Below the pieces are notes generated by a model that ran no database searches, had not been told where the DNA came from, and saw only the letters and a program-made list of their open reading frames with translations. The position numbers and the translations under genes were made by a program. From Halopiger goleimassiliensis (GTDB lineage Archaea; Halobacteriota; Halobacteria; Halobacteriales; Natrialbaceae): a stretch of 64,000 nt of DNA. Positions 10,859 to 26,549 of this stretch are shown in pieces. The DNA lies in contig NZ_HG315690.1 in assembly GCF_000455345.1 (NCBI RefSeq), positions 434,001 to 498,000 of the forward strand. The letters are read 5' to 3'. How positions within the stretch are numbered: the stretch's first letter is position 1; each line of letters opens with the position of its first letter.

Positions 10859-12784
10859 ATGTCAACGGACGGGGCCGAGAGTACGGTTCAGCAGGTCCTC
10901 TCGGGGATCGGCCTCGACAGGCTGCTCGGCGATTCGGCGTCGGAGGGAGCGTGTGACTGCGATCTCGAGTTCGAAGATCGAACGCTCCTGGTCGACGCCG
11001 CCGACTGTAGCGGCGACCTCGTCGAGTCGCCGGACTGTCGCCAGTCGGTCGTCGAGAAGCTCGCGGACCGGGACGCGAACGCCATCGTCGTCTTCTCCAA
11101 CGGACTGAAGTACCGGTACGATCGCGAAGAGACGGCGTTTCTGGGCGCAGCGGGTCGGTTCGTCGAGCTACTCGGGAGCAGAGACGAGGTCCTCGCACGC
11201 GACGTCGCTCGAGATCCGATCGAGTCGTCGGCAGGTCTGGAGACCCGGGTCGACGAAATCGGCGACATCGCCATCGAGTCGGGGCTCCTGGACGCGGTCG
11301 AGGGGGTCTCGTCGTACACGGACGTGATGTCACCCCGCGTCGGTCTCGAGATCGCGAACTACTTCATCGAGCGCTCGATCGATGACTCGACGCGGCTGGT
11401 CGACGTGCGCGAACTCGAGACCGGGAGTACGACCAGGGTGTACGAACGGGACAACGAGTTGCCGCTGTACGAACTCGACATCGTCGACCTCTCGCTGACG
11501 CCCGAGGAGCGAACGCTGATCATCGACGGCTACGAGGCGATCGCCGAGGGATGGGTCGAGGGCGACCGCGCCCCTTCCCGCGCGATCGAGTTTGCCTCGG
11601 ACGAACCGGTCGATCCGACGCTGACGACGGTACTCGAGAAACACACCGAGGGCTACGGCATCCTCGAGGACCTGTTCGCCGATCCGGCGGTCACCGACGT
11701 CTACGTCACGTCGCCGGTGACGGCGAACCCCCTGCGAGTCGAACTCGACGGTGAGGCGATGGAGACGAACGTCCACCTCACCGAGACCGGGGCGAAGGCA
11801 CTCGCCTCCCGGGTGCGTCGGACCAGCGGCCGGGCGTTCTCCCGGGCGAAGCCGACGGTCGACGCGACGGCGTCGCTGGCCAACGGTCGCGGCTTGCGTA
11901 TCGCGGGCGTCACGGATCCGGTCGCCGACGGGACGGCGTTTGCCTTCCGCGAACAGTCCGACGATCGGTTCACGATACCCGGTCTCGTGGCCAACGGGAC
12001 CATGCCGGCGGAGGTCGCCGGCTTCCTCTCGACGGCCATCGAACGCAACGCGGCGGCGTTGATCGCGGGGACCCGGGGGGCCGGGAAGACGACGTTGCTC
12101 GGAACGCTCCTCTACGAGGTTACGCCCGACACGCGGACGGTCATCATCGAGGACACGCCGGAACTCCCCGTCGATCCCCTCCAGTCGGTCGGTCGCGACG
12201 TGCAAGCGCTGCGGACTGGGACCAGTGACGGACCCGAAATTTCGCCCGCCGACGCCCTGCGGACGGCACTCCGACTCGGCGACGGCGCGCTCGTCGTCGG
12301 TGAGATCCGCGGCGAGGAGGCGCGGGTCCTTTACGAGGCGATGCGCGTCGGTGCGAACGCAAACGCCGTGCTCGGGACGATTCACGGCGACGGCGCTGAC
12401 GAGGTGTACGAACGCGTCGTCTCCGACCTGAAGGTCGAACCCTCGTCGTTCGGTGCGACGGACCTCGTCGTGACCGTGCAGGCCTACGCGACGCCGGAGG
12501 GACGGAAACGCCGCGTCGCCCGCATCGAAGAGGTGCTGGGCGACGGCGACGACATCTGGTTCGAACCGCTGTACGAACTCGACGGCCGAACCGCCGCGGC
12601 CACGGGCCGGATCGACCGCGGTGAGAGTCGGTTCGTCCACTCGATCGCCGGGCCGACGGAGGAGTACGCCGACGTCCGCGAAGCCATTAGCAGGCGGACC
12701 GAACGGATACGGACGCTCGCAGAGGACGGACGAACGTCTCCCGAAGAAGTGGCCGCGGCGTACGCCGATCGGGTGGAGAGGTGA
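10859..12784 (+). CDS. Type II/IV secretion (pilus assembly) ATPase, PilB/TadA/VirB11 family
   Basis: 641 residues. It should power pilin polymerisation at the inner face of the membrane. The catalytic domain holds Walker A GTRGAGKT (about 403-410), the Asp box IIEDTPELP, the Walker B-like GDGALVVGEIRGEE (about 475) and the His box GTIHGDGADEV. The N-terminal domain contains the four Cys residues 32, 34, 50 and 60, which could bind zinc; this is unusual compared with bacterial TadA. The gene is followed after 6 bases by the TadC-like gene, the normal ATPase-platform pair of archaeal type IV pili. Confidence 0.92.
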   Translation: MSTDGAESTVQQVLSGIGLDRLLGDSASEGACDCDLEFEDRTLLVDAADCSGDLVESPDCRQSVVEKLADRDANAIVVFSNGLKYRYDREETAFLGAAGRFVELLGSRDEVLARDVARDPIESSAGLETRVDEIGDIAIESGLLDAVEGVSSYTDVMSPRVGLEIANYFIERSIDDSTRLVDVRELETGSTTRVYERDNELPLYELDIVDLSLTPEERTLIIDGYEAIAEGWVEGDRAPSRAIEFASDEPVDPTLTTVLEKHTEGYGILEDLFADPAVTDVYVTSPVTANPLRVELDGEAMETNVHLTETGAKALASRVRRTSGRAFSRAKPTVDATASLANGRGLRIAGVTDPVADGTAFAFREQSDDRFTIPGLVANGTMPAEVAGFLSTAIERNAAALIAGTRGAGKTTLLGTLLYEVTPDTRTVIIEDTPELPVDPLQSVGRDVQALRTGTSDGPEISPADALRTALRLGDGALVVGEIRGEEARVLYEAMRVGANANAVLGTIHGDGADEVYERVVSDLKVEPSSFGATDLVVTVQAYATPEGRKRRVARIEEVLGDGDDIWFEPLYELDGRTAAATGRIDRGESRFVHSIAGPTEEYADVREAISRRTERIRTLAEDGRTSPEEVAAAYADRVER

Positions 12785-12790
12785 CGGATC

Positions 12791-14521
12791 GTGTCGCTGT
12801 TGGCCACTACGATCCGTGGTCTCGCCGGCCTCTACCCCTACGAGGTGGAGGCGAGCCGCGAACTCGTCGACTCGGTCCAGTTCGTCGACGCGCCCTACGA
12901 CGCCGAGACCGTCGTCAGGGCCGGATACGGGGCGGGGCTGATCGGTGCGCTCGTTCCGCTTCCGCTGATCTGGCTAGACGTCCCCCTCGTCTTCATCGCC
13001 GTCCTCGTGATAACCGCCTCGCTCGCGTCGATCCACGCCGTTCACTCCTGGCCCCACCTCCAGGCCGCGTTCCGTCGGACCGAAGCGTTGGGTGATACGC
13101 CGAACCTCATCGGCCGTGCCGTGTTGCGCATGCAGATCCAGCCCTCGCTCGAGAACGCGATCCGATTCGCCGCAGAGACGGGTGAAGGACCGCTCTCACG
13201 AAGCCTCGGTGCACACTTCAACCGTGCAAAAGGGACGCCACACGCCGGGTTGCTGTCGTTCGCCGAGGAGTGGTCCGAGTACTTCCCGGCGCTGCGCCGG
13301 TCCTCGACCCTGTTGGCGACCGCACAGGACGCCCCCGAAGGCGAACGTGCCCGGACGCTCGATCGCGCCCTCTCGGCGATTCTCGACGGGACGCGCAACC
13401 AGATGGCGGAGTTCACGTCGGCGATTCGGGCACCGACGACGATGCTGTTCGCGTTCGGTATCCTGTTGCCGATGGCGCTGATTGCCGTCGTACCGATCAT
13501 TCCGGTGACCGGCGTCACCCTCAACATCTGGATGTTCGTGTTGCTCTACAATATCGTGTTGCCGGGAGTACTCATCGCGGCGTCGCTGTGGCTGCTCGTG
13601 CGCCGCCCGGTCGCGTTCCCGCCGCCGAAGATCGACCGGAATCACCCCGAACTGCCCGACCGACTCTGGCTCCGTGCCGGCTGGGGCGTTCTCGCCGGGG
13701 CCATCGTCTACGTCGTCGTGAAACTGTACGGTCCCGCCTACCTCGCCGAGGTCACCGCGTTCGGTACCGGCGTCGGGGCCGCGTTGCTCGCCATCTACAG
13801 TCCCATCCTCGAGTTGCGCCACTACGTCCGCGACGTCGAGGAGAACCTCACCGACGCGCTCTATATCGTCGGTCGGCAGGTCGCCGAGGGCGAATCCGTC
13901 GAGTCCGCGATCGACCTGGCCGCCGAACGCGTCCCGAACGAGACCGGAGAGGTGTTCGAACACGCGGCTGGGGTCCAGAAACGCCTGCACACGAGCGTCG
14001 AGGAGGCGTTCCTCGGCACGTACGGGGCGCTTCGGAACATCCCGAGCCAGCGGGCCCGTAGCATGGCAGCACTGTTGGCGATCGCCGGCGAGGAAGGCAA
14101 ACCCGCCGGTCGAGCCATCGTCTCGATGGCCGACCACCTCGAGGAGCTCGAAGACGTCGAGGCCGAAACCAAACGAGCGCTGGTCCGCGTGACGAGTACG
14201 CTCGACAACACTGCGGCCTATTTCGGTCCGATGGTCGGCGGTGCGACCGTCGCCATGGCCGATATGATGTCGACCGAGAACTTCGAGACGCTCGAGGGCT
14301 TCGAGGAGGCGACGACGCTCTCGACCGATCATCTCGGTATCGTCGTCGCCATCTACCTGATCATGCTCGTCTGCATCCTGATCCCGCTGTCGTACGCGCT
14401 TCGCCACGGGATGGATCGAACGCTGTTTGGCTACCACGTCGGCCGCGGACTGGTGTCGGCGATGGTGCTGTTCGTCCTGACGGTCGGCCTGATCGAAATC
14501 GCGCTGGTCGAACCGATCTGA
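12791..14521 (+). CDS. TadC/PilC-like pilus platform membrane protein
   Basis: 576 residues starting at a GTG 6 bases after the ATPase stop. It contains two T2SSF-type halves, each with a cytoplasmic helical bundle (TRNQMAEFTSAIRAPTTMLF in the first; RALVRVTSTLDNTAAYFGPM in the second) followed by hydrophobic helix pairs. About nine membrane segments can be seen, the last ending LIEIALVEPI. The double-F-domain size is normal for archaeal PilC/FlaJ proteins. It forms the membrane platform on which the ATPase at 10859 works. Confidence 0.9.
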   Translation: MSLLATTIRGLAGLYPYEVEASRELVDSVQFVDAPYDAETVVRAGYGAGLIGALVPLPLIWLDVPLVFIAVLVITASLASIHAVHSWPHLQAAFRRTEALGDTPNLIGRAVLRMQIQPSLENAIRFAAETGEGPLSRSLGAHFNRAKGTPHAGLLSFAEEWSEYFPALRRSSTLLATAQDAPEGERARTLDRALSAILDGTRNQMAEFTSAIRAPTTMLFAFGILLPMALIAVVPIIPVTGVTLNIWMFVLLYNIVLPGVLIAASLWLLVRRPVAFPPPKIDRNHPELPDRLWLRAGWGVLAGAIVYVVVKLYGPAYLAEVTAFGTGVGAALLAIYSPILELRHYVRDVEENLTDALYIVGRQVAEGESVESAIDLAAERVPNETGEVFEHAAGVQKRLHTSVEEAFLGTYGALRNIPSQRARSMAALLAIAGEEGKPAGRAIVSMADHLEELEDVEAETKRALVRVTSTLDNTAAYFGPMVGGATVAMADMMSTENFETLEGFEEATTLSTDHLGIVVAIYLIMLVCILIPLSYALRHGMDRTLFGYHVGRGLVSAMVLFVLTVGLIEIALVEPI

Positions 14522-14696: not shown

Positions 14697-15749
14697 ATGG
14701 ACTTCGAGGCTCCGGTAGACGCCTGGTACGTCTTGGTGGCGGTGATGATCATCACCACCGCACTCGCCGGGATCGTACTGGGCCTTCCCTCGGCTCCGCC
14801 GCCGGACGCCCAGCAGACCGCAAACGCCATCGAGGGAACAACCAGCAGCGAGTACGCCGCTAGCTCGTCCTACGAGCACGATGCGGAGACCGTGACCATC
14901 AACCGGAAGACGATCACGATGGAGAACGATCACGGGACCGCTCACGCGAGTTTCGGCTACGGCACTGTCGTCCCCGTCAACGGGTACGAACGCCTCGAGA
15001 ACCTCACCTACGGCGCGTCGTTCGAGGACGAATACGAGGCGGAACTCCAGGACGGGGACACGCACGCGTTCGCGGTGTTCGAAGACGAGGTCGAAACCGC
15101 TTACGAGGAGAATACCGACGAGGAACTCGTCGCCGACGGCACGCTTCAGGCCCGCAAGGTCACGGTCGACTCCGGAATCGACGAACTCGAGCCGCTCGAA
15201 GAGAGTATCACGGTCGAAGTAGCGGAGACGTGGGAACCTGCGATCAACAAAATTCCTGGGTGGGACCCAGACGAGTTCATCGGCGCGGTCAGGATAGCGT
15301 ACGACGGAGTCGAAGACAGGCAGATAAGCGCCGATATAGAGGGAGACCACCGGCTCCAAGATACATTCCCGTCTGTGATCCCTGATCAGTTCCTCCCCTC
15401 TCCCGATGATCTGGACGAAACTGAACAGCTACAGGCTAACAATGCTGGATACGACTCGGAAACAGTCGAAACCAAATCTGAGGGGTTTACGATCGAGACA
15501 ACGGTCCTTGGCCAGGATTTTTACGCCGAATCCAAGCAGCCTGCCGAAGATCCGGTTGAGTTCGACATCCGCGTTTCCGATCCAGCCGGAGAGCTGCCGA
15601 CCGAAACGGTGGACCTAGAACTCGAGCACGATGAGGGTTCGAAAACGTGGGAAAACGAGATCGAACGCGAGATGGACTTCGACCACGACCATCCGGCGAT
15701 CGGGCTCAACGACGGAGGGAACTACTATGTCACGCTCGTCAAAGTCTAG
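14697..15749 (+). CDS. Anchored exterior pilus-locus protein (DUF7283-type)
   Basis: 350 residues. One N-terminal helix (about 8-31, AWYVLVAVMIITTALAGIVL) is followed by PSAPPPDAQQTANAI, a motif I associate with the family DUF7283 (from memory), then an exterior domain of strands with a HAFAVFEDEVE element. The gene segment coding for the C-terminal half (about 15240-15640) is noticeably richer in A+T than the start. That pattern is also seen in the other exterior domains of this locus. The gene overlaps the next start by 23 bases. It is probably a minor pseudopilin or an assembly partner. Confidence 0.72.
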   Translation: MDFEAPVDAWYVLVAVMIITTALAGIVLGLPSAPPPDAQQTANAIEGTTSSEYAASSSYEHDAETVTINRKTITMENDHGTAHASFGYGTVVPVNGYERLENLTYGASFEDEYEAELQDGDTHAFAVFEDEVETAYEENTDEELVADGTLQARKVTVDSGIDELEPLEESITVEVAETWEPAINKIPGWDPDEFIGAVRIAYDGVEDRQISADIEGDHRLQDTFPSVIPDQFLPSPDDLDETEQLQANNAGYDSETVETKSEGFTIETTVLGQDFYAESKQPAEDPVEFDIRVSDPAGELPTETVDLELEHDEGSKTWENEIEREMDFDHDHPAIGLNDGGNYYVTLVKV

Positions 15750-16221
15750 GGGACAGACCGAACCCCTCGCGGCGATCCTGGCGGTCTCTATCTTCGTCAT
15801 CGCCCTGGGCATGTACGTGATGGCGACACAGCCGTTGTTACCGGGTTCTAGTGACGAAGCGACCGCCGATCAGACGATCGACCGGATCTGGAACGACGTG
15901 GAAGAAGACGGCATCTTCCACGCGTACCCAGGCTCCGACGACATCTCCGACCTGGTCGAGCACGAGTCGATCCCCGGTGGATCGTCCGTGTACGTTTCTG
16001 TAACCGCGATCGAGAACGGTGCGGAACGAACCGTCGACGAGGCTGCGTTCCCGTCGGGCTATGCCTCGGACACGAGCCAGAGCGACATTACCGAACTCGA
16101 GCAGTACATCGCCGACGAGGGCACCCCCGACGACGCCAGCGTGGCGACGCGCTCGATTCCGGTTGCCGTCGAGAGCCGTGCAGACGTTCGCTCCGGAACC
16201 CTCCGGGTGGAAGTATGGTAA
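15727..16221 (+). CDS. Pseudopilin-like protein (DUF7285-type)
   Basis: 164 residues. The chosen ATG at 15727 lies inside the end of the previous gene; the longer frame from 15631 would add an Arg-rich tail without sense. RGQTEPLAAILAVSIFVIAL gives a pilin-like polar-hydrophobic junction and a single helix (about 12-35). The rest is a small exterior domain. The TEPLAA start of the helix is typical of the haloarchaeal family I recall as DUF7285. It overlaps the next gene by 7 bases. Confidence 0.72.
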   Translation: MSRSSKSRGQTEPLAAILAVSIFVIALGMYVMATQPLLPGSSDEATADQTIDRIWNDVEEDGIFHAYPGSDDISDLVEHESIPGGSSVYVSVTAIENGAERTVDEAAFPSGYASDTSQSDITELEQYIADEGTPDDASVATRSIPVAVESRADVRSGTLRVEVW

Positions 16222-17258
16222 CACGCGATCGAGCCATCTCGACGGTGATGGACGTCTGCCTGGCGCTGCTGATCATCAGCGCGAGCGTGATGCTCGTCGG
16301 GATGTACCTCCACGACGACGAGGAGTCGATCGAAGGCGACCGCGGTGATCAGGCGCTGGAGACCCTGTCCGGATCGACGGTGACGATCACGTACAATCTC
16401 GACGCGCCCAACGAGTCCGGCCACGCTGCGACTGACAGCGACAATTACGACCTCCCCGATAATCTGGAGCCGGAAAACGTCGGGGAACTCTACAATATCA
16501 CTACTTACGGCTCGGCGGCCGATCTGCTCGGGGAGGCGGCCCTCTCGAACCTCCGGATCGACGGGACCGAACTGTTCGCCTACGGTCACGAGGTCGAGCG
16601 ATCAGTCGAAGCGGCGATTCAGGGTCGACTGGTCGGCAGCGAGGGGAACGTCTACGCCGTCGCGACCTGGGAACCCTACGAGGGTGCCGGGATCAACGGT
16701 ACCGCAACCGCCGGGAGCCGACCGCCGTCGACGGCCGACGTCTCGAGTGCCACGATGGAAGTCTCGACCGACATTCCGGCACTCGATCCCCGGTCGCTGG
16801 CTAACTCCCTCTTACAGAATCCAGCGAGTCGGCCCGACGCCGAAGACGGATTCGACTTCGTCGGTCGGGATATCGCTGCGGCGATGGTCGAGGGCTATTT
16901 CCCGGCCACCCAGAGCCAGTATACCCTCGAGTCGACGCTCTCGGAGAATCCGGCGACGCTGTACAACTATCGACAGATGGCTGACGTAGCAGGCGTCGAT
17001 ATCGAGTCGGAACTTACAGGGACGCTTCCCGACGCTACCGAGGCGAACGAGAAACTTCGCGGTGATCCCGGTGCGGACGGGCTGGCCCCCATTATCGCAG
17101 ACGACCTGCGCAACAGTACGGCCGGAGAGAAACTGGAGGCGGCTATTGACGACTTCGGCAACAATCCGACGCCGGCCGAACGGGACGAACTCGAAGCGCT
17201 GTGCGAAGAACTCTTCGAACCCGAAACGATCGAAATTACCGTCCAGACCTGGGACTAA
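16215..17258 (+). CDS. Pseudopilin-like protein (DUF7284-type)
   Basis: 347 residues. TRDRAISTVMDVCLALLIISASVML gives a pilin-like leader plus H-domain (residues about 6-30), matching the family I know as DUF7284. The exterior domain is long and acidic. It has a conserved-looking region around YNYRQMADVAGVDIE and ends in a TWD strand. Its stop overlaps the next ATG as TAATG, so the large pseudopilin downstream is probably translated by coupling. Confidence 0.72.
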   Translation: MVTRDRAISTVMDVCLALLIISASVMLVGMYLHDDEESIEGDRGDQALETLSGSTVTITYNLDAPNESGHAATDSDNYDLPDNLEPENVGELYNITTYGSAADLLGEAALSNLRIDGTELFAYGHEVERSVEAAIQGRLVGSEGNVYAVATWEPYEGAGINGTATAGSRPPSTADVSSATMEVSTDIPALDPRSLANSLLQNPASRPDAEDGFDFVGRDIAAAMVEGYFPATQSQYTLESTLSENPATLYNYRQMADVAGVDIESELTGTLPDATEANEKLRGDPGADGLAPIIADDLRNSTAGEKLEAAIDDFGNNPTPAERDELEALCEELFEPETIEITVQTWD

Positions 17259-20200
17259 TGTCACGACGCAATCGCTCACGACGGGACGCATCGTTTACGA
17301 TCGCCGAACGCGGCCACGTACCGTTCGCGATGATCGCCGTCCTCTTGCTCGTCTCGAGCATCGGCGTCGTCGCCGTGCTCGAACAGCGATCCGAGCCGAC
17401 GATCAACCGCGACGCACAGGAGGTGATGGATCGCAGTGAAACCGCAGCACAGAGCGAACTCCGGACGGCCGCGCTCGAGGCGACCCACCAGGCCGGTGCC
17501 GCGCCAATCAATACGACGGCCGGCAGTTCCGTATCCGCTATCGCATCGGAGTCCGGCCAGGAAGCTTTCGAACGGTACGTGAAACTGCTCGTCTATATCG
17601 AGGCAGCCGACCGCCTTCCTGCGGCGGGACAGTCGATGGGTACTGATACCCGTTCGTCCGTGTCGCTGGAGCCGGTGACCAGTGGAGGAAGCGGTGACGG
17701 GATAACGCCGTCGGAGGCTATCGAACGGGTCGAACTCGACATCGGACGCTACGAGAGCGGCCTCGAGAACGGCACCGTCGACGTGACGATCGAAGACGTC
17801 GAGTTCGAGGCGCAGGTCGACGGCGAAACGGTGCCGACGGAGACGCGATCCATCAGCACCACGGTCGGGACGCCGGTGTTCGAACTCAACGAGAAGATGA
17901 ACGAGTACGAATCGGAGCTCAACAGGGGCTTCTTCGAGTCCGACGGCATGCCCGATCCGACGAGTCTCGACGGGCTCGGTCAGGAGATGGCGGCGCGACT
18001 CTACCCCATCGCGTACATGAAAGCGGGTTGGAACCGGCTGGGTGAGAAAACGACGGCTCCCCAGAACCAGACCTTCGAAGAGGTCATCGACACCGATCAC
18101 GCCGAAGTGCTCGCGAATAACGCCATCTTCTCCGTGCAGGAGGAGGTCTTCGGGACGCGCGATCCACACGCCTCTCGCACGATGCGACCACAGTATCTCT
18201 GTATGAGTCTCGATCTCGCCACGAATATCGGAGACGTCGATCTCGAGGTGGACATGAACGACATCGTTCCGAGCGATAACATCACGTTTGCTGAAGATCT
18301 CGAAGACCAAGGAGTCAACAGCAGTGAGATGGACGGCGACGAGAACGTGACGGTACCAGTCAACGGAACGGTGGACTTCCAGGAGGAGTTCTGTGACGAC
18401 AGTGGAAGCCTAAACAAGTGGATCTTCGGCGACAAGGCGACGGGCGACCTCCCCGAAGTACCGCCGGTGTCGGAACTCATCCAGGACGGCGTCGACAGCA
18501 TGGAGGTCGGTAATCAGGAGATCGAAGTGCCGGTGAACACGCTCGCGAACGCGACGTACTACGAGTACGCGATCGAGGACTATACGCTCAAAGACCTGAA
18601 GGATCCCGCCACGTATATCGAAGATCAGGCCGACAATCTGAGGAGCACTATCCAGGGCGAAGGTGGTGACGTAGACGACTTCGAGATCGACGACATTACG
18701 GACGACGATTACGAACGGACGCTGGAGGACATCAGGGACGAACTCTACAAACTCGGCGTGCGCATCGAATCGGATGCGTGGTCTGGATCGGTACCGAGTC
18801 CCTCGTCGCCCGGAAGCGGATACAGTCGCTACTATGCGTTAGATACCGAGCGCATCGAAGACGTCACCATCAACGACGTCAGACACAACCCGCACCCCGA
18901 CGGTGACGACTACACGAACCGTGAGATCCACACCATTACGGCCGACGCATCCGTAGACGTATACGTCAGACATGGATGGGTAAAAGTCGAGGACAACAGG
19001 ACCATAACGGAAACGACGAACACTACGGGATCCGTGGGCGTCGGGTTCAACGCGACGATCACGAGCAACTACAGATACAGAGAAGGCGGAGAACACTTCG
19101 AATCTGCGGGTCAGTTCCGCGTCGCGGAGAACCCGATCGAGACCGACTACGGTACCCACGAGAACGTCACGTTCCGAGAGGGCTTCGAAACGGCGCTCGA
19201 GGAACTGACGAGTGTGGGCGATTACAGTAGGGCCGAGAGCGACCTCGAGTCGGATCTCAGATCGGCGCTTTCGAGTTCCGATCCCGATTCCCTCGAGAGT
19301 GCCGCGGAAAGCGCCCTCACGGATGGGAGCAGTGCGACCCTAACCGTCGATCAGGTGATCGAATCCAGCGAGGAAAGCGAGCTCGAACCGGTGATGCATA
19401 ACGAACTCGAAACGGTACACTCCGAGTTCCAGTCGGCCTGGGAAAACGACCCGTTCAAAGTCGAACTCAGCGAGCTCACCGAGGACGAGACGCCGCCCCA
19501 GAAGGTCATGGAGTACATCAAAGACGAGATTCAGCCCGATCTCGTCGACGAAAGCGGGTACGAGACGCCCGAGGACAATCTGCGACAGCAGGTTCGCAAG
19601 GCCTACTTCGACCGGATCTACTACTGGCTCGAACTGTTCGACGACGAGTACAGTACTCAGTTGGACGGCGTGAACGACAAACTCAACGACGTAACCGGTG
19701 ACCAGATCGACGGGCTCAACGAGGTGCTGGGCTTCGTCCAGGACTTTGCCAACGCCGACTTCGATCCCGATCCGGTCGACCTCGAGGGGTCGCCGGTGTT
19801 AGACGACGCCCAGTACGAGGTGTCGGGTGCGCCGACGTACTTGGCGGCGACGTCGATCAATCGCTCGATCGATCCCGCCGTCCGTCCCGAAACGTCGACG
19901 GTCGCCGACGCCAACGTTCCGTCGGACTTCCATCATGACCCGCTGGCGATCAAGACACACAATCGCGTCCCCTGGCCCGGGTTGCCCGTCGTCCTGCCGC
20001 TGCCCAGCAACTGGTACGCTACCGTCAATACCTGGAACGTCGAGGTTGAAGGCGAGTACGCCCGCCTCGAGGTGAGTTCGACGGTGGGCGATCCAGCCGA
20101 CACGGATCGGCTGACCTACGTCGCCGAGGCCAGCCCCGTCGAGGTCGAACTCAACGACGGCTCGACGGTTCAAGTGGGGAAGAACGAGGCCGTCGACTTC

Positions 20201-20380
20201 GACACCAGTACCGAAGTGATCGTCATCATGCCCGGAGCCGTCGTCCAGACCGGTGGACCGGTGCCGGCTGTCGCGGATGGGCGGTCTACAGGATCTGGAG
20301 CCACATACTGTTCACAAACATGGGACGAAGTTGGTCCAGATGCAGCAGTAGACTACGATAATTGTGACAACCTCGGTTAA
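17258..20380 (+). CDS. Very large pseudopilin-like exterior protein (DUF7286-type)
   Basis: 1040 residues from the ATG at 17258, which overlaps the previous stop. FTIAERGHVPFAMIAVLLLV begins the single N-terminal helix (about 20-38). About 1000 exterior residues follow: helical segments in the first half (EKMNEYESELNRGF), a region of WSGS and strand motifs, and a C-terminal domain with LPLPSNWYATVNTW. The last 33 residues hold a Cys pair (TYCS...NC). It resembles the family I recall as DUF7286, the largest member of this pilus locus, and may form a tip or cell-surface platform. The 3' 198 bases before the tail are repeated at 21928, making the tail exchangeable in principle. Confidence 0.78.
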   Translation: MSRRNRSRRDASFTIAERGHVPFAMIAVLLLVSSIGVVAVLEQRSEPTINRDAQEVMDRSETAAQSELRTAALEATHQAGAAPINTTAGSSVSAIASESGQEAFERYVKLLVYIEAADRLPAAGQSMGTDTRSSVSLEPVTSGGSGDGITPSEAIERVELDIGRYESGLENGTVDVTIEDVEFEAQVDGETVPTETRSISTTVGTPVFELNEKMNEYESELNRGFFESDGMPDPTSLDGLGQEMAARLYPIAYMKAGWNRLGEKTTAPQNQTFEEVIDTDHAEVLANNAIFSVQEEVFGTRDPHASRTMRPQYLCMSLDLATNIGDVDLEVDMNDIVPSDNITFAEDLEDQGVNSSEMDGDENVTVPVNGTVDFQEEFCDDSGSLNKWIFGDKATGDLPEVPPVSELIQDGVDSMEVGNQEIEVPVNTLANATYYEYAIEDYTLKDLKDPATYIEDQADNLRSTIQGEGGDVDDFEIDDITDDDYERTLEDIRDELYKLGVRIESDAWSGSVPSPSSPGSGYSRYYALDTERIEDVTINDVRHNPHPDGDDYTNREIHTITADASVDVYVRHGWVKVEDNRTITETTNTTGSVGVGFNATITSNYRYREGGEHFESAGQFRVAENPIETDYGTHENVTFREGFETALEELTSVGDYSRAESDLESDLRSALSSSDPDSLESAAESALTDGSSATLTVDQVIESSEESELEPVMHNELETVHSEFQSAWENDPFKVELSELTEDETPPQKVMEYIKDEIQPDLVDESGYETPEDNLRQQVRKAYFDRIYYWLELFDDEYSTQLDGVNDKLNDVTGDQIDGLNEVLGFVQDFANADFDPDPVDLEGSPVLDDAQYEVSGAPTYLAATSINRSIDPAVRPETSTVADANVPSDFHHDPLAIKTHNRVPWPGLPVVLPLPSNWYATVNTWNVEVEGEYARLEVSSTVGDPADTDRLTYVAEASPVEVELNDGSTVQVGKNEAVDFDTSTEVIVIMPGAVVQTGGPVPAVADGRSTGSGATYCSQTWDEVGPDAAVDYDNCDNLG
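20080..20277 (+). repeat. Direct repeat 1, copy A (inside the large pseudopilin gene)
   Basis: 198 bases that match 21928-22125 with only two mismatches (20188 and 20257). Both ends are sharp: similarity begins at 20080 and falls off after 20277, where the variable tails start. Confidence 0.93.
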
Positions 20381-20410
20381 CGTTGGGGAATACACTATGA
20401 TGGCTTTGAT

Positions 20411-20437
20411 AATATAAATATTACGTGGATTTATATT
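20411..20437. terminator. A+T-rich hairpin after the pseudopilin operon
   Basis: Perfect 9-bp inverted repeat, AATATAAAT at 20411-20419 and ATTTATATT at 20429-20437, 31 bases after the stop at 20380. It lies in an A+T-rich segment (20381-20620) that is absent from the second cassette copy. It could end the pilus transcript, but its stem is A+T only and therefore weak. Confidence 0.4.
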
Positions 20438-20620
20438 TGAGTGTATAAGTTATCTACTCATACAATCCTAATTCTCAAGCGAATCATGGTGGATTGGATG
20501 CCACGATGTCAACCACGAATGTTAAAATTCAACGTCATTTGGGCCAACGTACCCTTCAGAGAGGAGGACAATCGCCCTAAAACAGACAATACTGATCCGA
20601 ACAGCCGATTATAGATCCGT

Positions 20621-21817
20621 TTAGCTAAATGCAATGAGCCCAGGATCGTCAACAGCAACCAAAACGAGACCGTTCAAAACGACTGGAGAGTGCCATTCTG
20701 TCTGTTCAGGAATCTCCTTTTCTCCCCGAAGTTCACCCGTTTCTGCTTCCATTGACACGAACTTCTGCGGGGACACAACTCCTGCCTGATGAGTCCCGTA
20801 CAGATTTCCAGCTGCTGCTACGAGTGGATCATCAGGACTTGCTTCGGGCTCCCAGTCTGCTACGGGCTCGTTAGCATCGAGATCGTACGCAATCAGGCTG
20901 CAGTAGATCCTTTCATTGTCCACTGTTGGTCTATTTCTTAGTGTAGTGTCCTCAAACTCTGCAATTTCGTCTATCTCCCCACTGGATCCCTCAATCGTGA
21001 TGAGAGAATTTTCATCTCGAGTATATATTTCTCCATCGACAACCGGAAACGTTCGGGTATAGCGGTCATCAATCCAAGTTTCTGTTTTATAAAGGTCGTG
21101 TTCCCAGAGATGGTCGCCTGAATCTCGTTCGTATGCTGCCACCGTGAACTCATCTTCGTCACTCTCCTCTCGTGATTGGACGTAGATCCAATCGGCATCG
21201 ATTGCGATCGATTGAAGCGTTTCAGCCACCTCGAATTCGTTGCGTTCTTCACCGTCTTCGTCGACAACGAGAAGCCGATCCTCGAGACCAGCATAGATTA
21301 GCTCGTCGTAGATCCGAATACTACGAACGGATTGCTCGTGGCCGGTCGTCCACTGCACATCACCCGTCTCGTGGTCTCGTGCTTCGAGGCCATCTCCACC
21401 GGTAAAAACGGCCGACTCGGAAACTGCAAGTGCCTTTTGTTCTCCGGTTTCGTCTTCCCAGATAACTTCACCATCGGAAAGGTCAACTGCACTATACATT
21501 CCGCTCCTGTGGCTTACAAATGCAGTATCGTCGTAGACAACTGGTGGTTCGACGGTCCCTTCTAGGTCAGCAGTCCACTCAATTTCGGGTTCGCCATCGA
21601 TACCGTCGTGTGGAACCGAGAGTCGATTGCGGGAATTGTACCGGATCATCGGCCAGGCCCCGTACTCGCCGTCGTCCGCGACGGCACCGGGATCGTCCTC
21701 CGGCGAGGTTCCGTTCCCGTCGGAGCCACTGGTACAGCCCGCGAGAGCGGCCATCCCGACTGTCGTCCCGGCACACGCCACTAACCACTGCCGGCGGGTT
21801 CGTCTATTTTCACCCAT
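20621..21817 (-). CDS. PQQ-like beta-propeller Tat lipoprotein, copy 1
   Basis: 398 residues from the ATG at 21817. A Tat-type start (TRRQWLVACAGTT) and a lipobox (ALAGC, Cys about 28) predict an exported lipoprotein. The body shows repeated propeller blades with motifs such as VVYDDTAFV, GEVIWE, DVQWTTG, IYAGLEDRL and GDHLWEHDL, which fit a PQQ/Gmad-type beta-propeller that probably binds another surface protein. No quinone-binding residues can be claimed. The gene converges on the large pseudopilin gene. Its first 159 coding bases are nearly identical to those of copy 2, while the rest is only about half identical in protein. Confidence 0.85.
   Translation of the reverse strand: MGENRRTRRQWLVACAGTTVGMAALAGCTSGSDGNGTSPEDDPGAVADDGEYGAWPMIRYNSRNRLSVPHDGIDGEPEIEWTADLEGTVEPPVVYDDTAFVSHRSGMYSAVDLSDGEVIWEDETGEQKALAVSESAVFTGGDGLEARDHETGDVQWTTGHEQSVRSIRIYDELIYAGLEDRLLVVDEDGEERNEFEVAETLQSIAIDADWIYVQSREESDEDEFTVAAYERDSGDHLWEHDLYKTETWIDDRYTRTFPVVDGEIYTRDENSLITIEGSSGEIDEIAEFEDTTLRNRPTVDNERIYCSLIAYDLDANEPVADWEPEASPDDPLVAAAGNLYGTHQAGVVSPQKFVSMEAETGELRGEKEIPEQTEWHSPVVLNGLVLVAVDDPGLIAFS
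21647..21805 (-). repeat. Direct repeat 2, copy A (head of PQQ lipoprotein 1)
   Basis: 159 bases equal to 23276-23434 except for three clustered mismatches. It covers the signal peptide, lipobox and first mature residues of the PQQ lipoprotein. Similarity drops sharply on the body side. Confidence 0.92.
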
Positions 21818-21927
21818 ACATTTACTTATCGATGTTATTGACAGTAATGTATTCTTCGGAAGTGATTTTCTTCCTTCATTCACGTTGGAAAAATACTGCA
21901 CAGAAACGGCACGTGGGGGCAAAGTTA

Positions 21928-22125
21928 GACGGTGGGCGATCCAGCCGACACGGATCGGCTGACCTACGTCGCCGAGGCCAGCCCCGTCGAGGTCGAACTC
22001 AACGACGGCTCGACGGTTCAAGTGGGGAAGAACGAAGCCGTCGACTTCGACACCAGTACCGAAGTGATCGTCATCATGCCCGGAGCCGTCGTCCAGACCG
22101 GTGGGCCGGTGCCGGCTGTCGCGGA
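21928..22125 (+). repeat. Direct repeat 1, copy B (orphan pseudopilin segment)
   Basis: Second copy of the 198-base segment at 20080-20277, exactly 1848 bases downstream. Here no upstream part of the pseudopilin gene precedes it. Confidence 0.93.
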
Positions 22126-22222
22126 CGGCAAAGCGACCGATTCTGGTACCACCTATTGTTCAGACACTTGGAAGGAAGTCGGCCCAGATGCGAACTCGGA
22201 CGCTGCAAACCGTTGTGATTGA
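21928..22222 (+). pseudogene. Orphan 3' tail of the large pseudopilin gene (silent cassette)
   Basis: An open frame reading in phase with the end of the DUF7286-type protein. The first 65 codons are almost identical to that protein's C-terminal domain. A different 31-residue tail follows that keeps the Cys pair (TYCS...RC) but changes most other positions. There is no start of the N-terminal part, no TATA box at the right distance, and only an internal GTG could serve as start. It is therefore a partial copy that is probably not translated alone. Recombination with 20080-20277 would give the large protein this alternative tail and would delete PQQ copy 1. Confidence 0.8.
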
Positions 22223-22240
22223 AAGAGGTTAGGTTGCTCC

Positions 22241-23446
22241 CTAACTGAACGCTACAAGACCGGGAGAATCGATCGGAAGTAGTACCAGTCCATTCAGAAC
22301 GATCGGGAGATGAGACTCCGCTTGTTCTGGGGATTGTTTGTCCCAGTTTACGTCTCCAGAAGTAGCATCCATCGACACAAGATATTGGGGTTCAGTGACA
22401 CCGCCACTATCTGTGGTGTAGATTTCATCGTCGGCAAGAACCAACGAACGTCGCGTATTCACTTCCGGGTCCCACTCAGATAGCATGCTGTCGGTCTCGA
22501 GATCGTAGGCTACCGGTTCCGTTGTACGAATGTACAACCGGTCGTGATGAATTGTCGGTCTCGTCCACGGATCTCCCTCATCGAACGTGGCTACTGCTTC
22601 TCTTTCACCGGTAGCTCCATCGATAGCAATCACTTCGTTTTCGTCGACAGTATACACTGACTGGTCGATGACGGGGAACGTTCTGGTCACTCGATCGTCG
22701 AACCACTGTTCGGTCTGATGAACGCTATGTTCCCACAGTTGTTCTCCAGTATCGTGGTCGTACGCAGTCATCACGAACTCGTCTTCCTCTTCGTTAGGTC
22801 GGGAACGGACGTAGATCTGGTCGGAATCGATAGCCAGTGATAAAACAGTCTCCGGCGCTTCGAACTCGAGTTGCTCGTCCCCTTCTGCGTCCAGAACGAT
22901 TACTCGATCCTCGAGACCAGCGTACACTTGTCCGTCGTAAATACGAAGTGTTTCGACGGACGGATCGTGACCAGTCGTCCATTGAACATCACCCTCGTCG
23001 TGATCGAGGGCTTCAACGCCATCTCCAGCAACGAAAACAGCGGCTTCGGACACCGCAATTGTCCTCATATCATCTGTTTCGTGTTCCCACACGATCTCGC
23101 CCTCGCTCAAGTCAATTGCAGTATACTTTCCGATAGAATGACTAACAAATGCCATCTCATCGTACACGACGGGTGGATCAACAGGCGACTCGAGATCGAC
23201 AGTCCACTCAATCTCGGGTTCACCATTCAGGCCATCGTGAGGGACCGACAGCCGATTTCGAGAATTGTACCGAACCATCGGCCAGGCCCCGTACTCGCCG
23301 TCGTCCGCGACGGCACCGGGATCGTCCTCCGGCGAGGTTCCGTTCCCGTCGGAGCCACTGGTACAGCCAGCCAGGGCGGCCATCCCGACTGTCGTCCCGG
23401 CACACGCCACTAACCACTGCCGGCGGGTTCGTCTCTCTCGAGCCAT
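22241..23446 (-). CDS. PQQ-like beta-propeller Tat lipoprotein, copy 2
   Basis: 401 residues. It has the same Tat lipoprotein start (RRTRRQWLVACAG, lipobox ALAGC) and the same propeller layout as copy 1: VVYDEMAFV, GEIVWEHET, DVQWTTGHD, VYAGLEDRV, GEQLWEHSV. Roughly the first 70 residues are almost identical to copy 1; later blades are only about half identical, so the pair is old but its ends have been kept alike. It converges on the orphan tail 18 bases away, just as copy 1 converges on the full pseudopilin gene. The tail-propeller pairing suggests the two products interact (inference). Confidence 0.85.
   Translation of the reverse strand: MARERRTRRQWLVACAGTTVGMAALAGCTSGSDGNGTSPEDDPGAVADDGEYGAWPMVRYNSRNRLSVPHDGLNGEPEIEWTVDLESPVDPPVVYDEMAFVSHSIGKYTAIDLSEGEIVWEHETDDMRTIAVSEAAVFVAGDGVEALDHDEGDVQWTTGHDPSVETLRIYDGQVYAGLEDRVIVLDAEGDEQLEFEAPETVLSLAIDSDQIYVRSRPNEEEDEFVMTAYDHDTGEQLWEHSVHQTEQWFDDRVTRTFPVIDQSVYTVDENEVIAIDGATGEREAVATFDEGDPWTRPTIHHDRLYIRTTEPVAYDLETDSMLSEWDPEVNTRRSLVLADDEIYTTDSGGVTEPQYLVSMDATSGDVNWDKQSPEQAESHLPIVLNGLVLLPIDSPGLVAFS
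23276..23434 (-). repeat. Direct repeat 2, copy B (head of PQQ lipoprotein 2)
   Basis: Second copy of the 159-base head of the PQQ lipoprotein, 1629 bases from copy A. The upstream promoter regions of the two genes are also related (TTACTT-TCGA-G-TGTTGA patterns). Confidence 0.92.
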
Positions 23447-23595
23447 AGTGTTACTTTTCGAGGGTGTTGAGAGTAAAGTATCCTCCGAAAGGAGTGCTCT
23501 TTTCGACCAGGGTCGCGGAACGAATACTCGAGCCGGTTTCTCGCCGGTCGTCGCTCACCCGAACACCTTTTGCCCTCACGGGAATCCTCTCGAGT

Positions 23596-24447
23596 ATGAT
23601 CGACGAGACGGTCGAGGAGATCACGGAGATGCAGACCCACAGCTCCTCGGTGGTCGCGGTGAAGGCGACCCGGGCGCTCGAGGAGTTGCTCGAGCGCGAG
23701 TTCGCGACGGTCGAGGAGTACCTCCGTGCGCTCGAGCGGAACGGAACCGTGTTGCGGCGGGCCAATCCCTCCCACGCGTCGCTCCAGAACGCGATTCGGG
23801 AGGTCGTCACGGACGTGACCGAGGCGGACCCGGAGACCGTCGCGGACGCGAAAGAACGGACCCAGGAGCAGATCGACGCCGTGATTTCCCGGGTGCAATC
23901 GGGCAAACGGCTGGCCGCCGAGAACGCGGCCGAACTATTAAGCGACGGGGAGACGCTGTTGACACACGACTACTCGTCGACGGTACTCGAGGCGCTCGAG
24001 CAGGCGACCGCCGAGGGCAAATCGTTCGAGGTCTACGTCACCGAGGCCCGACCCCGGTACATCGGCCGGAAGACGGCCCGGCGGCTGGCGGACGTCGAGG
24101 GCGTCGAGCCGACGCTCATCACCGACAGCGCCCACGGCCTCTACCTGGAGGAGTGTGACCGCGTCATCGTCGGGATGGACTGTATCGTCGACGAGACGCT
24201 GTACAACCGGGTGGGGACGTTCCCCATCGCGGCGACGGCGAACCAACTCGAGGTGCCGGTCACGGTGTTGGGGTCGGCGTCGAAGATCGTTACCGAGGGG
24301 TTCGTCTTCGAGAACGAGTATCGGTCGGGGAGCGAGGTGATGCCCGAACCCGCCGAGGGGTTCGCCGTCGAGAACCCCAACTACGACGCGACGCCGGTCG
24401 CGTTGCTCGAGAGCGTCGTCACCGACGAGGGTCGCCGGGAGTTTTAG
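23596..24447 (+). CDS. eIF2B alpha/beta/delta-like protein, probable ribose-1,5-bisphosphate isomerase type
   Basis: 283 residues from the ATG at 23596; the longer frame from 23464 runs through the divergent promoter region. Motifs of the eIF2B/MtnA/R15P isomerase superfamily are present: an N-terminal helical domain, [51 protein letters not shown] and a C-terminal FENEYRSG region. The archaeal members act in the AMP/NMP degradation route to ribulose-1,5-bisphosphate, but haloarchaeal forms are often annotated simply as eIF-2B. I cannot decide the substrate. The sequence is slightly shorter than the 320-residue Thermococcus enzyme. Its 3' end overlaps the convergent thuA-like gene by 4 bases. 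Confidence 0.8.
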
Positions 24448-25139
24448 TCGCGTTCGCCGAACGTTCGGGGGGACCCCTCGCGGGGTGTTGCCCAGTCCAC
24501 GGCGTTTCGCAGCACTTGCTGGACGTGTTCGTGCTCGTAGATGGGATAGGTCTCGTGGCCGGGTCGGAAGTAGAAGATCCGGCCGCTGCCGCGCAGGTAA
24601 CAGCAGCCGCTGCGGAACACCTCGCCGCCCTCGAACCAGCTGACGAAGACGAGTCGATCGGGTTCGGGGACGTCGAACGGCTCGCCGTACATCTCGGTTT
24701 GGGGCAACTCGAACGACTCCGGGAGACCGTCGGCGATCGGGTGGCCGGGATCGACGACCCAGACGCGCTCGGTAGCGCCGTCCTCGCGGTACTGGAGGTT
24801 ACAGGAGGTCCCCAGGAGCCGCTTGAAGATCTTCGCGTAGTGGCCCGAGTGCAGGACGATCAGGCCCATCCCCTCGAGAACCTGCTCCTGAACGCGGTCG
24901 ACGACGTCGTCCGAGACCTCGTCGTGGGCCTCGTGGCCCCACCAGAGCAGGACGTCCGTCTCCTCGAGTCGGTCCGGCGGGAGTCCGTGATCGGGTTCGT
25001 CGAGCGTCGCCGTCCGGACCGCGAATCGCTCGTCGAGCGCCGCGGCGATCGTGGCGTGAATGCCGTCGGGATACACCGCCTGCACTGCCTCGTCGGTTCG
25101 TTCGTGTCGGTACTCGTTCCAGACGGTGACCGTTACCAT
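24444..25139 (-). CDS. thuA: ThuA-like trehalose utilization protein
   Basis: 231 residues from the ATG at 25139; the upstream GTG at 25187 would add a basic stretch. ThuA has a class I glutamine-amidotransferase-like fold. Motifs seen are [50 protein letters not shown] and [16 protein letters not shown]. In Sinorhizobium ThuA and ThuB act in trehalose/disaccharide catabolism through 3-keto sugars. Here it is divergent from a ThuB-like oxidoreductase and near a sugar ABC importer, which supports a similar pathway. The exact sugar is not known. Confidence 0.85.
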
Positions 25140-25433
25140 ACCGTCTCCGACCACCTCGAAGCCCTTAGCTCGCCCCCGTAGACTCACGAGGAACTCGGGG
25201 CACTCCAGGTCGCGGTGCCGGCTTCCAGCGCCCCGAATTGTCTGGACGTTTGAAGAAAATATATCGTAATAAGTGAATGATTAGTGGTGTAACGGATTAA
25301 TCGTACACAACTCTTATTTCCATCCCCGACCGGGTTCCTACATGGACTTCTGCCCTCACCCACAACCGACACCGAAATGGCGTCTTTCTCGGCGATCGCA
25401 CCAGATCTCCCTCGAGAAATTCGGTGTTTACAC
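25140..25433. promoter_or_regulatory. Divergent promoter region between thuA-like and Gfo/Idh genes
   Basis: 294 bases without a gene. It is A+T-rich around 25255-25320, with AAATATATCG at about 25257 as the best TATA-like stretch for the rightward gene. I could not find a convincing repeated operator. Confidence 0.4.
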
Positions 25434-26549
25434 ATGAGCGATGGGAGCGTCGGTATCGGCGTCGTCGGCCTCGGTGGAATGGGAACCCTCCACGCCCGCC
25501 GTCTCCAGGAGCTCGGTGCCGACGTCGTGGCGGGGGCGGACCTCGTGGAAACCCAGCGACGACGCTTCGCCGACGAGTTCGGAGCCACCGTCTACGAAAC
25601 CCACGACGAGCTCGTCGTCGACGAGGCGGTCGACGCGGTCGTCGTCACCACGCCCAACCGGTTCCACGAACCGATCGCGGTCGCTGCCCTCGAGGCCGGC
25701 CGTGACGTCCTCGTGGAGAAGCCGCTGGCACACTCCCTCGAGAGCGCGGAACGGATCGCTGCGGTCGCGAGGGAAGCCGAGGGCGTCTGTATGGTCGGCT
25801 TCCACAACCGCCACGCCGCGTCGATGCGGATGTTCGAGGAACACCGCGCTCGCGGCCGATTCGGCGATCTCACTCACGTCGAGGCGAACTACGTGCGGCG
25901 TCGGGGCGTCCCCGGCCCGGGATCGTGGTTCACCGACCCCGAACTGGCCGGCGGCGGCGCGTTGCTCGACATCGGCGTCCACGCCCTCGACCTCGCGCTG
26001 TACGCCCTCGAGTTCCCGGAGATTACCGAAGTCTCGGGCGTCACGCGTACGACGTTCGGCGACCGGCCAGACTACGCCGACCCCGAGGGCTTCGGCGACA
26101 ACTGGGACGCCGAGGCAGAGACCTACGAGGTCGACGACTCCGTCAGCGCGTTCCTGCGGACCGCCGAGGGACAGACGATTTCGCTCGAGGCAGCCTGGGC
26201 GACCAACCGCGAGGAGGGCATGGACTTCCGCGTCCGGGGGACGGACGCCGGTGCCCAGTTCGACATCGGCGACACGGACGTGACTATCCTCGAGGCTGGC
26301 ACCGCGGGCTGTGACCACTACGCCGACGTCGAACTCTCCGGCGATCCCTCGTTGACCGGCTACAGCACGCAGGACCAGCGGTTCCTCGAGGCTATCACGG
26401 CGGGGGCAGAACCCGAGACGAACACCCTCGAGCAGGCACTGACCGTCCAGCGGGTCATCCACGCCATCTACCGCTCCAGTGAAAGTGGCCGCTCGGTCTC
26501 GCTCGAGGAGGCCGACCTGGCGGTCGGTCAACGGGCCCAGCTCAACTGA
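25434..26549 (+). CDS. Gfo/Idh/MocA-family oxidoreductase (ThuB-like)
   Basis: 371 residues from the ATG at 25434. An N-terminal Rossmann fold has GVVGLGGMGTLHA and the strand-helix DAVVVTTPNRFH. The family motif EKPLAHS follows, and then the C-terminal substrate domain with GGGALLDIGVHALDLALY (the catalytic His region). NAD(P)-dependent oxidation of a sugar or sugar derivative is expected. The divergent thuA-like neighbour and downstream sugar importer suggest a ThuB role, forming 3-keto disaccharides, by analogy to Sinorhizobium. A large hairpin covers the stop codon and may separate it from the transporter genes. Confidence 0.85.
   Translation: MSDGSVGIGVVGLGGMGTLHARRLQELGADVVAGADLVETQRRRFADEFGATVYETHDELVVDEAVDAVVVTTPNRFHEPIAVAALEAGRDVLVEKPLAHSLESAERIAAVAREAEGVCMVGFHNRHAASMRMFEEHRARGRFGDLTHVEANYVRRRGVPGPGSWFTDPELAGGGALLDIGVHALDLALYALEFPEITEVSGVTRTTFGDRPDYADPEGFGDNWDAEAETYEVDDSVSAFLRTAEGQTISLEAAWATNREEGMDFRVRGTDAGAQFDIGDTDVTILEAGTAGCDHYADVELSGDPSLTGYSTQDQRFLEAITAGAEPETNTLEQALTVQRVIHAIYRSSESGRSVSLEEADLAVGQRAQLN

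Follow-up and report, generated by a model that had tools for sequence, protein, structure and literature searches.

In the window, a 64,000-nucleotide stretch of a Halopiger goleimassiliensis contig, the last ~300 bases of a gene encoding a large pseudopilin-like protein (DUF7286) are repeated 1848 bases downstream, and each copy of this tail faces a convergent gene for a beta-propeller lipoprotein. Comparison with related loci indicates that the end of the tail, together with the 3' portion of the propeller gene, probably constitutes a recombining polymorphic cassette, the tandem units being spare cassettes that were either displaced or captured.

The DUF7286 gene is the final gene of a T2SSE/T2SSF locus of the type IV pilus type, in which a T2SSE ATPase and a T2SSF platform protein (a weak match) are found beside pilin-like proteins (Table 1). 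The encoded protein consists of a long N-terminal helix, an ectodomain, a C-terminal beta domain (approximately residues 921-992), and a short Cys-containing tail, which in the AlphaFold2 model (pLDDT 74) is a short peptide beyond the last beta domain. A fold search with this model against the PDB gave no significant match, and DUF7286 was not named in the literature searched. A second complete DUF7286 gene, 59% identical, is located elsewhere in the same genome (C1:297789-300944), beside a cbiG-like gene and without a propeller. The propeller lipoproteins of the window carry a Tat signal and a lipobox, and propeller 2 was modelled as a BamB-like propeller, so that propeller fold, signal sequence and lipobox were all found; their scores are far under the BamB equivalog cut-offs, hence we call them BamB-like and not BamB. 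Given the Tat signal and lipobox of the propeller and the helix and beta-domain layout of DUF7286, both the lipoprotein and the C-terminal domain with the tail are expected to be outside the membrane.

Table 1. Features of the pilus-type locus and of the two tandem units (window coordinates).
Feature	Position	Strand	Remarks
T2SSE-type ATPase of pilus-type locus	10859..12784	+	PF00437, E 1e-18
T2SSF-type membrane platform protein	12791..14521	+	PF00482, E 0.0015, under gathering score; adjoins ATPase
DUF7283 protein	14697..15749	+	PF23954
DUF7285 protein	15631..16221	+	PF23956; true start probably more internal
DUF7284 protein	16215..17258	+	PF23955
DUF7286 large pseudopilin-like protein, 1040 aa	17258..20380	+	PF23957, E 9e-115
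Tail constant part, copy 1 (left end of cassette 1)	20080..20277	+	198 bases, 2 mismatches to 21928-22125
Tail variable end, copy 1, in frame with main gene	20278..20380	+	divergence starts here
PQQ-type beta-propeller Tat lipoprotein 1, 398 aa	20621..21817	-	PF13360; MGENRRTRRQWL...LAGC signal and lipobox
Propeller constant 5' end, copy 1 (right end of cassette 1)	21633..21805	-	offset 1629
Inter-unit junction	21863..21922	.	unmatched either side
Tail constant part, copy 2, without upstream gene	21928..22125	+	
Tail variable end, copy 2, silent	22126..22222	+	PF23957 positions 931-981 for 97-codon ORF; no ATG start
PQQ-type beta-propeller Tat lipoprotein 2, 401 aa	22241..23446	-	PF13360; pLDDT 84; best PDB match BamB
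Propeller constant 5' end, copy 2 (right end of cassette 2)	23262..23434	-	offset 1629

The tail repeat described in the initial annotation, with its offset of 1848, was recovered exactly, and in a longer form it covers 20075-20343 and 21923-22191 at 91% identity. The repeat at the propeller end, given there as 159 bases with 3 mismatches at an offset of 1629, turned out to be slightly longer in its best segment (173 bases, 5 mismatches). The interiors diverge as had been proposed, even at synonymous sites: identity at four-fold sites falls from 0.76 to 0.18-0.42, and the two propellers, 61% identical overall, share 0.93 of residues 1-80 and 0.43 of the last 130. The interiors are also AT-rich, with ~41-53% G+C versus ~58-67% at the ends and flank. 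The Cys pair is indeed kept, within a C-S-x-T-W ... C pattern present in both tails, and the second unit holds only the tail of the DUF7286 gene, as a 97-codon open stretch (21929-22222). Neither an inverted repeat pair in 16000-26000 nor a recombinase among 9 further neighbouring genes tested (8.4 to 30 kb) was found.

When the number of units was compared among relatives, as the initial annotation had suggested, genomes with one, two or relic units were observed. The same order as in the window (main tail, propeller, orphan tail at L099:8191-8466, propeller) occurs in G067, a member of another genus, where the right-hand repeat spans 362 bp at ~99.7% identity, the core of the tail repeat is ~95% and the interior ~60% identical, and four-fold identity is 0.98 in the signal end versus 0.40-0.43 elsewhere. 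Its units join at a 10-bp microhomology (GCGACTCGAG), a different joint from that of the window. This tandem is therefore independent and has the same design, which must have arisen at least twice; such a recurrence of conserved ends around a divergent interior takes the pattern well beyond chance. In the genome of the window itself, an orphan tail of another type lies beside rpsB between two intact propellers (L049:5637-8627), the large gene being gone, and since genus g5 carries a complete DUF7286 locus at the equivalent rpsB site, we read this unit as the relic of a locus. Relic tails were likewise found in L051 and L052. Intact propellers without a tail of their own are the second propellers of L049 and L114. 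In G022, one orphan unit is 300 kb away, adjoining an N gap, and another unit is interrupted by an IS240-type transposase gene. True tandem units are rare in Natrialbaceae (unambiguous in G000 and G067; G000 and G022 hold relic or broken units), hence most exchange must proceed by allele replacement and not by switching from a silent copy. The tails of G020 at contig ends were considered as orphans and dropped, as their cores may belong to two near-identical full genes; the G020 units were used for the propeller trees only.

A tail profile search detected DUF7286 tails in 70 of the 125 Natrialbaceae genomes and in 283 of the 392 genomes sampled across the order; the assignment to Natrialbaceae is based on hits that carry a name. 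In the Natrialbaceae loci fetched, the gene directly after DUF7286 is usually a convergent one for a BamB-like Tat lipoprotein propeller of one family; in 20 loci outside Natrialbaceae this arrangement is usually absent, and in one of them from another family (L174) a propeller is located at 832 bp. An exception is L163 (G174, also of another family): its tail and convergent propeller resemble the window's type, and the sequence likeness suggests that the whole locus was probably transferred between families. In L120 the propeller is missing and the tail end is altered, apparently a natural deletion. Over 37 loci, the cassette interiors are AT-rich, with G+C contents of 48.7% and 45.9%, as compared with 55.4% in the core and 63.8% in the flank.

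The strongest indication of exchange came from genus-mates that have single units. In the pairs L128/L132, L124/L127, L128/L130, L054/L107 and L117/L125, the core and the downstream flank are ~80-97% identical, and identity drops to 40-60% in the block made up of the end of the tail and the propeller's 3' portion. The block in L124/L127 has abrupt edges: 45-76% identity over ~400-600 bp and ~95% on either side, the replaced part being the tail end and roughly the last 110 residues of the propeller. In most pairs showing the dip, the block, unlike its surroundings, is close to saturated at synonymous sites; four-fold identity in L128/L132, for example, is 0.77 in the core and 0.42 in the last third of the propeller. 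Windows below 70% identity made up 30 of 88 inside the cassette versus 62 of 505 outside (Fisher p 2e-6, a rough guide as such windows are not independent). The close pairs L065/L123, L113/L115 and L061/L116 showed no block dip. In L065/L123, the last ~800 bases of DUF7286 are ~100% identical, the two species being ~95% identical elsewhere, and this core end looks like the product of a recent exchange. A different PQQ protein, encoded on the same strand, follows the DUF7286 tail in L056 and L102, and there the dip again spans the tail end along with the adjoining part of the following PQQ gene; these propellers were omitted from the propeller alignment because their N-terminus differs.

The two ends of the propeller give different trees. 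The tree of its N-terminal part follows genome and genus and matches the core tree, uniting the propellers of the window and of L099 with their respective orphans, L057 with L058, and L128 with L130 and L132. The tree of the C-terminal part does not: the clades L057+L058 (AU p 3e-5) and L128+L130+L132 (AU p 2e-9) are rejected, with p-values somewhat flattering since these clades were picked after the identity values were known, and L058 falls together with L130/L132, which belong to another genus (support 100/97). The two G020 propellers are sisters at the 5' end and not in the 3' part (p 3e-5), while sisterhood in the 3' part is not rejected for the window's pair (p 0.12) or for that of L099 (p 0.32). 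The expectation that tail and propeller types co-vary was borne out in close pairs, on which we base this claim: over 24 pairs, tail identity correlates with that of the last third of the propeller (rho 0.81), the correlation with the first 95 propeller residues being much weaker (0.37), a gradient that linkage of two convergent 3' ends also yields, so that co-variation is no proof of contact. Over 12 disjoint pairs, rho was 0.80 (p 0.002; permutation p 0.0035), and the partial correlation given the core was 0.76. Whole-family co-variation was discarded as evidence, since common descent accounts for most of it (partial Mantel no higher than 0.18).

From these results, a mechanism of exchange may be proposed. 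The variable tail end and the 3' part of the convergent propeller lie side by side as one block, framed by the beta domain of the tail on one side and, on the other, by the signal-peptide end of the propeller and the chromosome beyond it. Homologous recombination in these conserved flanks would import divergent alleles of the block from other strains or species, so that the tail and the propeller end would change jointly. Tandem units would be extra cassettes, displaced old or captured new ones, with the tail severed from the main gene. A crossover between the tail repeats would remove 1848 bp and bring tail 2 and propeller 2 into the active position, and one between the propeller ends would remove 1629 bp and with it the spare. 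The original proposal that recombination swaps the tail together with its partner lipoprotein is thus supported between species by the dips, the trees and the co-variation; within one strain, switching of cassettes may take place. Circles or imported fragments may serve as the exchange route; a search for a carrier yielded 12 pattern matches and no relative among viral contigs, and no match among plasmids. Tail and propeller may pair physically, and selection may favour diverse surface recognition, in virus attachment or self/nonself discrimination. The most likely reading of the function is a matched tail-receptor pair whose diversity would be maintained by viruses or partner recognition. Tentatively, the whole could represent a haloarchaeal recognition system with a matched polymorphic tail and lipoprotein, selected diversity, cross-genus block exchange, and tandem spare cassettes.

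The initial annotation had offered a simpler alternative, a plain tandem duplication with gene conversion at the ends; in this account the last gene pair was copied in tandem and its interiors then diverged, with no intergenomic exchange or switching role. The origin of unit 2 in the window is compatible with this account, as the 3' parts of the window's propellers may be sisters. Those of L099 may be sisters too, and the microhomology at the G067 junction resembles a simple duplication joint. However, the dips between genus-mates with a single unit are left unexplained, for their blocks diverge equally without any duplicate, and the units of G020 are sisters at the 5' end only; we therefore consider duplication as the full explanation rather unlikely. 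That an exposed tail and a propeller under little constraint simply evolved fast, with no recombination involved, appears very improbable: the tail follows the last beta domain in the model and so may be exposed and under weak constraint, but within one pair synonymous sites approach saturation in the block and not in the core, the signal end or the flank, which argues against it, as do the abrupt edges in L124/L127 and the allele classes that cross genera, with conflict between the trees (p 2e-9).

The remaining alternative concerns function, namely contact-dependent recognition or antagonism, in which the tail would be the acting tip and the propeller its cognate protector, analogous to toxin and immunity protein. 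The layout with orphan units is similar to that of Rhs/CDI loci, and the persistence of intact propellers without tails recalls orphan immunity genes. Yet the variable tail comprises ~17-45 aa and belongs to no toxin family, and a PADLOC search was without match, which makes this version improbable. The preferred reading, an exchangeable cassette, provides an archaeal case in which the edges of the exchanged block, the joint of the spare unit, and the joint change of two facing genes are readable per base, and a defined target for testing archaeal surface variation against viruses or in mate and kin recognition.

Among known systems, C-terminal displacement in Rhs proteins (Jackson et al. 2009, PMC2935791) and CDI orphan tips share with this locus a large surface protein with a conserved core and an exchangeable C-terminus evolving apart, dissociated tips with a core fragment downstream (here window 21928-22222, L099, and L049, L051, L052), interiors of differing base composition, and homologous recombination, probably via circles or imported fragments. 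In Rhs/CDI the C-terminus is a toxin accompanied by an immunity gene, whereas here the tail is short and unlike a toxin; since its partner is a propeller lipoprotein encoded convergently, exchange affects a block enclosed by the 3' ends of two genes that face each other. The locus is moreover archaeal, pilus-type, and has few tandem units. The PilV shufflon of IncI plasmids (PMC9045228, PMC5430464) also exchanges C-terminal ends of a pilus protein, but inverts segments with a dedicated site-specific recombinase, in contrast to the direct repeats found here. In Haloquadratum, deletion-coupled insertions and a cell-wall island (PMC3119063, PMC4535781) likewise exchange haloarchaeal surface genes in a conserved background, although whole genes or islands are replaced there and a block of ~0.4-1.3 kb alters parts of two genes together here. 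The VARTIG modules of Thermococcales (Makarova et al. 2021, PMC8416519) likewise combine a hypervariable C-terminus on an archaeal surface protein with recombination between species and shorter copies downstream, and they too resemble polymorphic toxin systems; they differ in their immunoglobulin-domain protein (by Pfam, the haloarchaeal DUF7286 has no Ig domain) and in their many partner families as opposed to one constant family. That study lacked close genomes for base-level edges, which can be read here, and its search for counterparts in other archaea, which looked for Ig domains, found none. With no toxin and no Ig domain, neither the Rhs nor the VARTIG definition applies fully, and our comparison suggests that the cassette may best be regarded as a variant of polymorphic C-terminal cassette systems.
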